The notes under the pieces are model-generated. The model searched no databases, was not told the origin of the DNA, and was given only the letters and a program-made list of their open reading frames with translations. The position numbers were made by a program, and so were the translations under genes. A DNA stretch of 34,447 nucleotides from Thermoleophilia bacterium (lineage in GTDB: Bacteria > Actinomycetota > Thermoleophilia > BMS3ABIN01), in contig JACWAD010000007.1 in assembly GCA_014874175.1 (NCBI GenBank), positions 1 to 34,447 of the forward strand, written 5' to 3'. How positions within the stretch are numbered: position 1 is the stretch's first letter; the number at the start of each line of letters is the position of its first letter. Below, piece after piece: positions 707-29,661 of this stretch.

Positions 707-717
707 ACAAGTTGCCC

Positions 718-773
718 GGTTTCCTGTTTTCGGTTTCCTGTTTTTGGTTAACCTCTTTTTGTTGATCTTGAAG
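718..773. repeat. degenerate heptanucleotide array between pth and mfd
   Basis: GGTTTCC TGTTTTC GGTTTCC TGTTTTT GGTTAAC CTCTTTT TGTTGAT CTTGAAG. Confidence 0.65.
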
Positions 774-8833: not shown

Positions 8834-8839
8834 TAAACC

Positions 8840-8895
8840 GAGATCCGAAACGCGAAGCGTTAAATCCTTAATACGGACATCGGAGTTTGGAAAAA
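8840..8895. repeat. possible weak heptad array after trxA
   Basis: GAGATCC GAAACGC GAAGCGT TAAATCC TTAATAC GGACATC GGAGTTT GGAAAAA; periodicity weaker than at the other loci. Confidence 0.35.
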
Positions 8896-8939
8896 TAAAA
8901 AAATGAATCCAATTACAGTGTTTGCTGTTTCGTGAAAGA

Positions 8940-8983
8940 TGTGGGGCGGCGGACCGCGGGAACCGCGGGCCGCCGCCCCCACA
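8940..8983 (+). terminator. very GC-rich nested hairpin downstream of trxA (possible terminator)
   Basis: tgtggggcggcgga-ccgcgg-gaa-ccgcgg-gccgccgcccccaca: inner ccgcgg/ccgcgg stem with outer stem containing one bulged C; no clear U-tract. Confidence 0.5.
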
Positions 8984-8988
8984 AACAT

Positions 8989-9107
8989 GTTTCCAGTTTC
9001 TGGTATCTAGCTTCCGGTTAATCCGTCATCCGACATCTACCATCCACCATCCGGGCTTTCGGGTTTATCCAAAATACAGCGTCCAAAGTCCAGTATCCGG
9101 TTTCAGG
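8989..9107. repeat. degenerate heptanucleotide array, 17 in-phase units
   Basis: GTTTCCA GTTTCTG GTATCTA GCTTCCG GTTAATC CGTCATC CGACATC TACCATC CACCATC CGGGCTT TCGGGTT TATCCAA AATACAG CGTCCAA AGTCCAG TATCCGG TTTCAGG. Confidence 0.8.
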
Positions 9108-9612
9108 CATTTCGCTGCCAGGCTCCGTAGGCCGCCGCCGCCATCCACAGCAGCTTCCAGACGCCGCCTATGGCGATAACGTAATCAACAGTCGGCGATG
9201 ACAGGCCATAAACAGCAAAACCTTTCAAGAAGAAAGGAAACAGTATCCCCAGGGCGGCGCAGGCAGACGCCCAGGCAGCCAGGCGCAGGTCGCGAAAACG
9301 GCCGCTGGCGCGCGAGACAGCTTCGCCAACGCCAGCTCCCAGGCCAAAGGCGATGATTATGGCAAAAAAACTAAGAGCGGAGACAAACAAACCAAACATA
9401 AAGCCGCCGATGGCGGCGGCGGCCAGTCCGATGATGACCGTCAGGACGAGCCGGTCCGGCTTCAGCCGTACCAGGGAAGAGCGGGGCATCTTGGCGCAAT
9501 TGGGGCACTTGGCAGCCACAGGGGTCTCAACCATGCAGTCCGGACAGATAGGGGCGCCGCAGGCGCTGCAAGTAACAAGTGTCTCTACGGAAGGGTGGTT
9601 TACACAGTACAT
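9103..9612 (-). CDS. B-box-like zinc-finger membrane protein, function unknown
   Basis: MYCVNHPSVETLVTCSACGAPICPDCMVETPVAAKCPNC followed by several hydrophobic segments. Start placed at the MYC methionine (9612) because the listed upstream extension is encoded by heptad repeat. Confidence 0.75.
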   Translation of the reverse strand: MYCVNHPSVETLVTCSACGAPICPDCMVETPVAAKCPNCAKMPRSSLVRLKPDRLVLTVIIGLAAAAIGGFMFGLFVSALSFFAIIIAFGLGAGVGEAVSRASGRFRDLRLAAWASACAALGILFPFFLKGFAVYGLSSPTVDYVIAIGGVWKLLWMAAAAYGAWQRNA

Positions 9613-9627
9613 GTTAAACCGGGCATC

Positions 9628-9655
9628 GGATTTTAGATATTGGACAATGGATAAG
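9628..9655. repeat. short heptad array upstream of the B-box-like gene
   Basis: GGATTTT AGATATT GGACAAT GGATAAG. Confidence 0.5.
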
Positions 9656-9861
9656 ACCAATTCGCTCAGGAAAGGCTCCGCGAAGGGATGACGGTTGCCT
9701 AAGCCAGTTGGATGATCAGTAAATTTAATAAATCAGGAACCATAATAATTATACAACACGGTTGGTTTGCTTCAAATTCCGTGAAAGACGAGGGATTTTA
9801 TTTCCCGTCGCGGAGCCCGTGCCAGGCGTTAGCGCAGAACTCCTTCGGATGATGTAGGGTT

Positions 9862-20269: not shown

Positions 20270-21468
20270 TTGATATTACCCGTCTTTATTGCGACCGGGA
20301 TACCCCTGCGGACTCCCTCCGTTACGGCCACGGCCACAAAGGCAAGGAAATGCCGGGAACGCCATACATTCCCCGCTGGACCAAGTCCGCGGCCGAGCGC
20401 CGGCCCGTAGTTGCCTGGAACACCAGCCGCACCTGCAACCTCAAGTGCGTTCACTGCTATACGGATTCGGAAGCCAGGAAGTACGAAGGCGAGCTCAGCA
20501 CGGAAGAGGGAATGGCGCTGATTGAAGACCTGGCCCGCTTCCAGATTCCGGCGCTGCTCTTCTCCGGTGGCGAGCCCCTGATGCGCAAGGACCTCTTCGA
20601 GCTGGCTTCCCACGCGGTATCCCTCGGCATCAGGCCGACGCTCTCCACCAACGGCACCCTCATTTCTCCGGAAGTGGCACGGCGGATCAAGGACCTCGGT
20701 TTTACCTATGTCGGCATCAGCCTGGACGGCATTGGCGACATCAATGACGCCTTCCGGGGCCAAAAAGGCGCCTTTTCCAGGGCGATGAGCGGTTTCCGCA
20801 ACTGCAAGGAAGTGGGGCAGCGGGTGGGCCTGCGCCTGACGCTGACGCGCCACAATTACACCGATCTGAGCCGGATCTTCGATTTCATCGAGGCGGAAGG
20901 GATTGACCGGGCATGTTTCTACCATCTTGTCTACTCGGGCCGGGGCAAGGAAAGCGACGATCTGACCCACGAGGAGACCCGCGACGCCCTGGACATCATT
21001 CTGGCGCGCACCAGGGACATGCACGACCGCGGCCTGGAGAAGGACATCCTTACCGTTGACAATCATGTCGACGGCATTTACCTGTACATGAAGCTGCTGG
21101 GCGAGGCGCCCGAGCGCGCAGAGGCGGTGATGCGGCTGCTTGAGTGGAACGGCGGCGGCATGTACAGCTCCGGCGTCGGCTTTGGCGATATTGACTTTTT
21201 GGGCAATGTGCACCCGGACCAGTTCTGGATGCATCACAGCTTTGGCAATGTGCGCGAGCGCCCCTTCAGCGAGATATGGATGGACACCTCCGACCCGCTG
21301 ATGGCGGGGCTGAAAGACAGGGCCGGCCACATCCACGGCCGCTGCCGCCGGTGCAGGTGGTTTGGCGCCTGCGGCGGCGCCCTGCGCGTGCGCGCCGACC
21401 TGGTCTACAACGATCCCTGGGCGCCCGACCCCGCCTGCTATCTGATGGATGATGAAATTAACGTTTAA
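20266..21468 (+). CDS. ahbC: radical SAM protein AhbC/NirJ1-like (12,18-didecarboxysiroheme deacetylase)
   Basis: MIDITRLYCDRDTPADSLRYGH N-terminus, VAWNTSRTCNLKCVHCYTDS (CX3CX2C), LFSGGEPLMRKDLF, C-terminal CRRCRWFGACGG cluster; next to ahbD/A/B and cobA-hemD. Confidence 0.9.
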   Translation: MIDITRLYCDRDTPADSLRYGHGHKGKEMPGTPYIPRWTKSAAERRPVVAWNTSRTCNLKCVHCYTDSEARKYEGELSTEEGMALIEDLARFQIPALLFSGGEPLMRKDLFELASHAVSLGIRPTLSTNGTLISPEVARRIKDLGFTYVGISLDGIGDINDAFRGQKGAFSRAMSGFRNCKEVGQRVGLRLTLTRHNYTDLSRIFDFIEAEGIDRACFYHLVYSGRGKESDDLTHEETRDALDIILARTRDMHDRGLEKDILTVDNHVDGIYLYMKLLGEAPERAEAVMRLLEWNGGGMYSSGVGFGDIDFLGNVHPDQFWMHHSFGNVRERPFSEIWMDTSDPLMAGLKDRAGHIHGRCRRCRWFGACGGALRVRADLVYNDPWAPDPACYLMDDEINV

Positions 21469-21545
21469 CGTTTCATGTTTAACTTTTCACGCCAAAACCG
21501 TTCCCGCCACGATAAGCATGGAGCGTTAAACGTGAAACGTTCACC
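21461..21545. repeat. ACGTTTMAYG-type heptad repeats in inverted orientation (17-bp stem) at the ahbC/ahbD junction
   Basis: AACGTTTCATGTTTAAC (21467-21483) and GTTAAACGTGAAACGTT (21525-21541) pair over 17 positions with one G.U. Confidence 0.8.
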
Positions 21546-22668
21546 GGAGAATTTGCATACTCACGCCGGTCATGCTCGCCATCCCGGCGGCAAGCCGGGG
21601 GAGGCGCCCGCGCTCCGCCTGGTCGCGTGGGAGGTCACCCGCCGGTGCAACCTCTCCTGCCGCCACTGCCGCGCCGCCGCCAACAAAGGGCCATATCCCG
21701 GCGAGCTGTCAACGGAAAAATGCCTCAGCGTTATTGATGAAATTGCAGAAACGGGCAGCCCGATTGTAATCCTCACCGGAGGCGATCCGATGATGCGGGA
21801 AAACGTCTGCGAGATAGCCCGCTATGGCACGGAAAAGGGCTTGAAAATGGTGATGTCGCCCTGCGGCACGCTGCTTGACGCAGGGAGCGCCAGGCGGCTG
21901 AAGGAAGCCGGGATCGACCGCATCTCGCTAAGCATCGACGGCGCCACCGCCGGGACCCATGACGATTTCCGCCGGGTGGAGGGCGCCTTCGATGAAGTCA
22001 TGAAGGGAATCGCCGCGGCCAAAAATGCCGGCATCGAGTTCCAGGTTAACACAACTGTGACCAAAGTTAACTTGGCCGAGTTGCCGGACATCCTAAAGCT
22101 TGCCATCGACCTGGGGGCGGCGGCCTTCCACCCCTTCCTGCTTGTGCCCACCGGCCGCGGCAAAGAGCTGGCCGACCAGGAGCTTTCGCCGGCGCAGTAT
22201 GAAGAGACGCTTAATTGGGTCTACGACCAGCGGGGCAAGCTGCCGCTTAATTTCAAGCCTACCTGCGCCCCCCATTATTACCGCATCCTCCGGCAGCGCG
22301 CCCATGCCGACGGCGAGCGCGTCACCGTAAAGACGCACGGCATGGACGCCGTCAGCAAGGGCTGCCTCGGCGGCCAGGGGTTTTGCTTTATCTCTTACCG
22401 GGGCGAGGTAAGGATTTGTGGTTTTCTCGATGTCAGTTGTGGCGACTTAAAAGAGCAGAGTTTTGGCGATGTCTGGCAGAGCTCGCCGGTTTTCCGGCAG
22501 ATGCGGGACCTGGACTCCTATCACGGCCGCTGCGGTTACTGCGAGTACCGCCGTTTTTGCGGCGGCTGCCGAGCCCGCGCCTACGAGGTCACGGGAGACT
22601 ACCTCGCGGAAGAGCCTTTCTGCGTCTATCAGCCGAAGGCTAAGAAACGGATGGTGGATGGTGGATAG
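21475..22668 (+). CDS. ahbD: radical SAM protein AhbD/NirJ2-like (heme synthase of the alternative pathway); start uncertain
   Basis: LVAWEVTRRCNLSCRHCRAAA, ILTGGDPMMRENV, SLSIDGATAGTHDDFRRVEGAF, C-terminal SPASM-like CGYCEYRRFCGGCRARAY. The first ~20 codons of the ORF lie in repeat sequence. Confidence 0.88.
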   Translation: MFNFSRQNRSRHDKHGALNVKRSPENLHTHAGHARHPGGKPGEAPALRLVAWEVTRRCNLSCRHCRAAANKGPYPGELSTEKCLSVIDEIAETGSPIVILTGGDPMMRENVCEIARYGTEKGLKMVMSPCGTLLDAGSARRLKEAGIDRISLSIDGATAGTHDDFRRVEGAFDEVMKGIAAAKNAGIEFQVNTTVTKVNLAELPDILKLAIDLGAAAFHPFLLVPTGRGKELADQELSPAQYEETLNWVYDQRGKLPLNFKPTCAPHYYRILRQRAHADGERVTVKTHGMDAVSKGCLGGQGFCFISYRGEVRICGFLDVSCGDLKEQSFGDVWQSSPVFRQMRDLDSYHGRCGYCEYRRFCGGCRARAYEVTGDYLAEEPFCVYQPKAKKRMVDGG

Positions 22669-23208: not shown

Positions 23209-23210
23209 TC

Positions 23211-23279
23211 AAGACGTTTCACGTTTAACGTAATGGAAGGGGTTTACATGAAACGTGAGACGTTAAACGTTAAACGGTC
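23211..23279. repeat. inverted ACGTTT-type heptad repeats at the ahbA/ahbB junction
   Basis: CGTTTCACGTTTAACGT (23215-23231) versus ACGTTAAACGTTAAACG (23260-23276): 16/17 complementary. Confidence 0.75.
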
Positions 23280-23300
23280 CTGTTGGGGGTCGAGACCCGC

Positions 23301-29313: not shown

Positions 29314-29353
29314 TAACGTTGTTTCACGTTTGACGTTTCACGTTAACGTGAAA
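29314..29353. repeat. ACGTTT-type heptad repeat ending in an 18-bp perfect palindrome
   Basis: gtttcacgtttgacgTTTCACGTTAACGTGAAA; palindrome at 29336-29353. Confidence 0.8.
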
Positions 29354-29377
29354 AAATATCTTCTCAATCCGTGAAAG

Positions 29378-29416
29378 AACGCAGGGAGCGATCCGTCCCG
29401 GATCGCTCCCTGCGTT
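29378..29416. terminator. strong bidirectional terminator-like hairpin (18-bp perfect stem, 3-nt loop)
   Basis: aacgcagggagcgatccg-tcc-cggatcgctccctgcgtt, followed by t(aaa) on the plus strand and ctttc on the minus strand; lies between convergent hemC and the 40-aa ORF. Confidence 0.8.
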
Positions 29417-29472
29417 TAAATAACAGCATTGCAAGCATGCCAATACTCTCTACCGCCGTGTGTTGCCCCTGC

Positions 29473-29595
29473 CTACGGCGCCGGCGGCACAGTAACGCTA
29501 CAGGACCAGTTAGAGCACTCAAAAGTGAGCTGCTTCAAGTTGTCATGCTTGGACAGCTCCGGCTTCTGGTAGACAGCCTTTACCTGCTTATCCAT
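29473..29595 (-). CDS. 40-aa putative RiPP-like precursor or small peptide (not in the supplied ORF track)
   Basis: MDKQVKAVYQKPELSKHDNLKQLTFECSNWSCSVTVPPAP*; SD gaagggaggaacagaATG; leader-like YxKPxL...LxxLT and Cys/Trp/Pro-containing C-terminus. Confidence 0.7.
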   Translation of the reverse strand: MDKQVKAVYQKPELSKHDNLKQLTFECSNWSCSVTVPPAP

Positions 29596-29661
29596 TCTGT
29601 TCCTCCCTTCAACCCTGTCAAAACTTTCCCAGCCCCCCGGGCTGATGCCCGAATGTAGAGG

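Follow-up and report, generated by a model that had tools for sequence, protein, structure and literature searches.

The heptad arrays of the window

The window, the whole 34,447-nt stretch of DNA that was analysed, belongs to a 1.78-Mb genome in 107 contigs (G000) from an uncultured actinobacterial lineage. The heptad array at 8989-9107 has on its left mfd and, nearer by, enolase, trxA and a G+C-rich hairpin, and on its right znr, encoding a zinc-ribbon/membrane-like protein (9103..9660, minus strand), followed by a gene for a BadF/HgdC-type ATPase. The hairpin (8941..8985, plus strand) is long and near-perfect and stands 3' of trxA, immediately left of the array; from its sequence it is a probable trxA terminator, and a similar sequence occurs at a contig end of the congener G002. 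The true start of znr is probably at 9614, and directly upstream of this likely ATG (9612-9614) lies an oppositely oriented array (9615..9653, minus strand; GGATTTTAGATATTGGACAATGGAT on the plus strand), which places znr between two arrays. G002 carries an array at the position matching 9615..9653.

A scan of the window gave further heptads, all on the plus strand: an array at 707..752 (CCGGTTTCCTGTTTT...), units of the TTAACGT/TTTCATG type at 21458..21491, GGATGGT units at 22649..22668 that overlap the ORF 21475-22668 at its 3' end, and more at 29314..29354 (GTTTCACGTTTGACGTTTCACG). Inverted arms of AACGTGA type (CGTTTCACGTTTAACG ... CGTTAAACGTTAAACGG) make up an array of about 70 bp at 23209..23282, which is absent from G002, where the corresponding spacer is 4 bp.

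Periodicity and composite structure

The 7-bp periodicity proposed for 8989-9107 in the first-pass annotation is significant. Identity at lag 7 reaches 0.56, compared with 0.255 for dinucleotide shuffles (z 7.3), and lags 14 and 21 give smaller peaks; the best lag-7 segment of the intergenic space 8834-9107 scores 23.8, a value reached by none of 5,000 dinucleotide shuffles (maximum 15.0); periods from 4 to 21 other than 7 score at most 9.8 in the same test. The description of this stretch as 17 in-phase heptads in a single run was too strong, however, since every stretch of 119 bp divides into 17 heptads and the TCC core moves within the heptad from offset 3 (8992, 9013) to offset 5 (9022-9050) and then to offset 2 (9068-9096). 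These two changes of register, which rule out one phase-locked array, mark 8989-9107 as three joined blocks, and identity at successive multiples of 7 falls (0.56, 0.43, 0.37, 0.31) as expected of a composite.

One block of the stretch is of GTTTCC type, and the other two are copies of a recurring ATCC element, placed in tandem 14 bp apart. Block 1 (8989..9017, plus strand; GTTTCCA GTTTCTG GTATCTA GCTTCCG) has a lag-7 identity of 0.64 and is missing from the orthologous place in G001 and G002. Block 2 (9017..9056, plus strand) is the first ATCC element, GTTA-ATCCGTC-ATCCGAC-ATCTACC-ATCCACC-ATCC-GGGC, with five units. Block 3 (9056..9107, plus strand) is the second, also with five units, CTTTCGGGTTT-ATCCAAA-ATACAGC-GTCCAAA-GTCCAGT-ATCC-GGTTTCAGG. 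It takes in the stop codon (9103-9105) of the znr ORF on the minus strand, in agreement with the earlier remark that the array runs up to the stop of the flanking gene, and orthologous arrays at the same gene end have four units in G001 and five in G002.

Heptads in the genome, the genus and the phylum

The beat of seven is a property of intergenic DNA in this genome. In 307 kb of sample, intergenic lag-7 identity is 0.279 against a background near 0.255, with an excess at 14 and 21 as well, and coding DNA has no lag-7 excess beyond its 3-bp period. Sampled stretches comprised 532 kb of G000, 792 kb of G001 and 11-205 kb of other genomes; gene boundaries were set by a simple longest-ORF rule, so the intergenic sets include some small genes and RNA genes. 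G000 has 48 intergenic period-7 segments in its 532 kb against 0-2 for periods 5, 8, 10, 11, 13, 16, 17, 19 and 20 (the 22 found at period 14 being a harmonic of 7), and G001 has 55 against 0-6 at the other non-multiple periods tested. Other loci of the genome carry similar arrays; the two outcomes that the first-pass annotation had named as counting against it, lack of significant periodicity and lack of such arrays elsewhere, both failed to appear. The units fall into the classes ATCCANN, GTTTCCN, AGTTCCA/GTTCAAA, ATTCCGC, CGTTTAA/CGTTTCA and GGGTTCC.

Heptad arrays are present in four of the five congeners of G000. The pattern (TCCNNNN)3TCC has 103 matches in G000 and 168, 109, 48 and 34 in its congeners G001, G002, G003 and G005, and none in the fifth congener, G004; elsewhere in the family, G008, which belongs to another genus, gives 101 and each remaining genome 0-8. 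A period-8 control pattern had no match in any heptad-rich genome. With a stricter pattern, a draw of 247 phylum genomes that left out the other array-rich genomes gave frequent matches only in G000 (79) and G002 (64); the others had at most 8, mostly microsatellites of identical units. Perfect long arrays do occur in the genus, as in the CCGGGTT array of about 17 units in G001 (L220:5375-5497) and the long TCCGGGT arrays of G002 and G003.

The ATCC element

ATCC units make up a discrete, sharply bordered element that is dispersed among loci and has the structure (GGGTTTN)1-3-(ATCCANN)3-4-ATCC-GNTTTTA. Among 86 intergenic copies in G000 and G001, 15, 29, 39 and 3 have three, four, five and six units, so that five is the mode. 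The upstream border is GGGTTTN, often repeated; downstream, G stands at +1 in 89% and is followed by any base and then by T in 61, 86 and 76% (86% at +4). Border information is near background past about -13 and +7. The core is conserved within the units, a conservation that is partly ascertained because the unit search requires RTCY. At the variable NN positions, units of one element resemble each other more (0.50-0.57) than units of different elements do (0.35), but neighbouring units match no better than they do once the order is shuffled (0.599 vs 0.618). These arrays are not ordinary perfect microsatellites with identical units and open-ended copy number, being degenerate and confined to 3-6 units. 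Selection on particular array positions finds no support either, since a motif-free test by neutral duplication-mutation simulation fits the phase variation of 61 arrays (mean p 0.51).

The elements tend to sit behind genes. For 51 of 76 the closest gene end is a 3' end, the right border lies a median of 15.5 bp from the neighbouring gene and the left border 88 bp, and at whichever gene end is closest the sense strand is usually the one that reads GGAT. In 15% of elements the GGAT strand has a strong sigma-70-like promoter at a distance of 130 bp or less, a proportion in which some tandem elements have one promoter in common, so that the independent count is lower, and to which G001 contributes most cases; control intergenic windows have 2.2%, and the other side of the elements 1.2%. 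Promoter spacing and spacer sequence are alike between cases (e.g. TTGACAAATAGAAAATAATCGTTATAAT). No adjoining sigma-70-like promoter was seen at the array in the window.

Near-identical strong promoters (TTGACAAATAGAAAATAA..TATAAT) stand beside heptad arrays at L220, L216 and L228 of G001 and at L046 of G000; possibly they were dispersed along with the arrays.

Inverted pairs in a sister genus

In G008, of the sister genus, facing arrays of the form GCGGAT(NNTGGAT)n - centre - (ATCCANN)nATCCGC make inverted-repeat elements of about 110 bp. The centre is exactly 44 nt long in 8 of 13 pairs and 42-45 nt in 10 of 13, with differing centre sequences, and the pairs fold into long hairpins. At one locus tRNA genes flank the copies, and a second locus carries a tandem triple of 160 bp. 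A genome-wide pattern search found the G008 arrays clustered on certain contigs, the sample stretches being almost free of them. One inverted pair, with arms about 49 nt apart, is present in G007, and paired arrays are a minority in G000 and G001. In the window's genus the arms mostly remain single, tandem (as at 8989-9107) or in loosely spaced inverted pairs.

No consistent target-site duplication was found around the 13 G008 elements. The two arms of one element resemble each other no more than arms taken from different elements do (0.754 vs 0.772, p 0.87); they therefore do not look like recent paired copies, and no arm co-evolution is seen. The RAYT/Y1 transposase (PF01797) had no match in G000, G001, G003 or G005, which speaks against mobilisation by RAYT, and templating by a reverse transcriptase was rejected in the absence of PF00078 from the heptad-bearing genomes.

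The heptad-free congener G004 has five Y1 transposase genes (PF01797), a family that has no member in four of the genus's five heptad-bearing genomes, among them G000.

Orthologous sites and the reversal of znr

Comparison of array length between relatives, which the first-pass annotation had suggested, revealed changes by whole units at a small number of sites. The znr 3'-end array has five units in G000, four in G001 and five in G002, and G003 and G005 have no array there. At about a dozen other orthologous sites arrays are kept with changed unit content and sometimes changed unit number (3 vs 5, 5 vs 4), or are decayed or absent; one site has switched class from ATCC to TTCC and another has the opposite array orientation.

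Enolase, trxA and znr are co-directional, with badF convergent on znr, in every relative whose neighbourhood lies on one contig. In G000, znr is reversed with respect to all relatives examined and is flanked by the oppositely oriented arrays, either through a single-gene inversion or as an artefact of the MAG assembly. The promoter region of znr seems to have been carried along with the gene, which would put the breakpoints outside the inner arrays.

Interpretation

The evidence tips towards the array in the window being an instance of a dispersed intergenic heptad family, MITE/REPIN-like in its spread, STRR-like in its makeup and turning over in steps of 7 bp. Arms would be copied into further intergenic positions, in most cases close to the 3' end of a gene, where harm is small, a dispersal suggested by the shared vocabulary, the borders, the narrow size and the differences in presence and absence. 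Once resident, an array may gain or lose whole 7-bp units and mutate, so that beat and borders persist through changes of content; the turnover itself is seen as differences between congeners, and slippage or recombination would be its mechanism. The minority of arrays that adjoin sigma-70-like promoters may have been co-opted, to judge from this association. The window array is most readily understood as one of these elements, sited at the znr 3' end, with a function that is at most putative. Block 1 and the classes AGTTCCA, ATTCCGC and CGTTTAA may be only candidate members of the ATCC-element family. Against dispersal stand the missing target-site duplications in G008, the searches for RAYT and reverse transcriptase, which turned up no mobilising enzyme, the own arms that are not extra alike and the per-array variation, whose fit to a neutral model of duplication and mutation would also follow from local slippage by itself.

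Local slippage is indeed the core of the strongest rival, in which the arrays are STRR-like degenerate microsatellites that grow in place by 7-bp polymerase slippage and decay by point mutation, with no dispersal. The perfect long arrays of G001, G002 and G003, the whole-unit differences between orthologous arrays and the fit of the simulation all agree with it, and the abundance of heptamers has been tied to a polymerase-footprint idea, at least as Mrazek 2007 is cited in PMC4679880 and PMC4692102. We nevertheless regard it as unlikely, if a serious contender: one vocabulary and the same borders are common to many loci, the units are confined to 3-6 with a mode of five, adjacent units are no more alike than shuffled ones and the G008 centres are near-constant at 44 nt. 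Purely local slippage is disfavoured, since it accounts for the length steps and the perfect long arrays but not for the shared borders and size.

The dispersed-family reading has a bolder extension, to which we give only slender credence: the arrays could be the arms of a hitherto undescribed class of small element, mobile or regulatory, read in 7-bp register by a putative DNA-binding protein or transposase, with the heptad classes as sub-families.

Doubtful is the proposal, made by analogy with the ParB-like omega protein, that the array is a binding site for a protein reading 7-bp direct repeats cooperatively, as a regulator or to organise the chromosome. The parS sites of pSM19035 to which omega binds are contiguous 7-bp direct repeats of which at least four are needed for function (PMC9499535), and a heptad-reading protein would be a possible explanation for the 3-6 contiguous units of the elements. 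The RTCC core is kept (in part by ascertainment) while NN varies, position is retained at orthologous sites despite NN turnover, and strong promoters adjoin about 15% of elements. Yet the nearest feature is mostly a gene 3' end and not a promoter, phase variation is compatible with neutrality and one congener has no pattern match at all. The omega family (PF07764) gave no match in a search in which the control genomes gave none either. Omega itself reads WATCACW units at plasmid promoters, whereas any protein that reads the ATCC arrays would be putative.

An RNA element in 3' UTRs, with GGAUNNU repeats that sequester a GGA-binding regulator (CsrA, for example) or fold into a structure, is highly improbable. 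It would suit the sense orientation of the GGAT strand and the hairpins of G008; however, CsrA (PF02599) had no match in 19 family genomes in a search with positive controls, neither strand of the window array folds better than its shuffles (z 0.19 and 0.02), and the window has no Rfam match. That the inverted arrays around znr are recombination sites which drove its inversion in G000 is hardly tenable: znr is reversed and sits between them, but the apparent breakpoints lie outside the inner arrays, the reversal may be a misassembly, and arrays are not enriched at synteny breaks (1/9 vs 15/90 and 2/14 vs 16/91; Fisher p 1.0), which also disposes of them as rearrangement hot spots.

Relation to known systems

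REPINs and MITEs are short dispersed inverted-repeat elements that occur as singlets and as inverted pairs near gene 3' ends. The G008 pairs have the same plan of inverted arms around a spacer; they differ in that the arms are heptad arrays, and the lineage differs in having no RAYT in four heptad-bearing genomes and no target-site duplication in evidence.

Heptanucleotide arrays are already known in cyanobacteria, Geobacter, Beggiatoaceae and Xanthomonas. The first-pass comparison with the STRRs of heterocystous cyanobacteria holds in kind, for G000 too has degenerate, lineage-restricted tandem 7-bp units in intergenic space at many loci, and fails for the supposed phase-lock over 17 units. 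STRRs, including the heptads of the P6b stem of the Nostoc trnL intron (Class I TDNGATT and Class II NNTGAGT), likewise have several unit classes, class replacement at a site and length change by units (PMC4476775). They differ in sequence and phylum, the present lineage being actinobacterial with units other than those published in the part of the STRR literature drawn on; the P6b heptads form a stem inside an intron, whereas here the array is a bordered element of 3-6 units with an inverted-pair form. The degenerate heptads with a recurrent 7-bp beat described at first sight were rightly seen, while the composite nature of the stretch, the bordered dispersed ATCC element and the inverted-repeat arms had been overlooked.

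The TAACTGA direct repeats of marine Beggiatoaceae are also abundant intergenic heptamer sets, with few copies per set and a sporadic distribution (PMC4679880), but theirs is a single exact heptamer just 5' of start codons, and the present units are degenerate, of several classes and mostly near gene 3' ends. Gmet_H4 of Geobacter metallireducens consists of dispersed short arrays of four heptanucleotide units (49 copies, GGACCGG); it has another unit and genic copies too, and its description in the part of PMC2700814 consulted reports neither border motifs nor an inverted-pair form. The GGGAATC and GGGGA(T/C)T heptamers of Xanthomonas and Nostoc are intergenic, vary in length among close relatives and include some inverted pairs (PMC4692102); their unit forms G-quadruplexes, and the ATCC element is without a comparable G-run.

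What sets this lineage apart is the bordered, degenerate element of 3-6 units, its appearance as inverted pairs in a sister genus and the presence side by side of several heptad classes. A lineage that combines array-bearing and array-free congeners with several classes, a bordered element of narrow size and inverted pairs allows slippage, transposition and protein recognition to be told apart by comparison. It is a case for studying why many bacterial repeat families are built on seven bases, how degenerate arrays keep this unit, and how such families spread and are kept up.

Other observations

A family of peptides of about 40 residues with a conserved terminal ECxxWxCSVTVPPxP is encoded in the window at about 29400-29640 (minus strand) and at L101, L102 and L116, as well as at L229 of G001; by their sequence these are possible precursor peptides of a modified-peptide pathway. 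At L047 (about 1492-1832; contig C24 of G000), an intergenic sequence resembles a cobalamin riboswitch and is a candidate by appearance.
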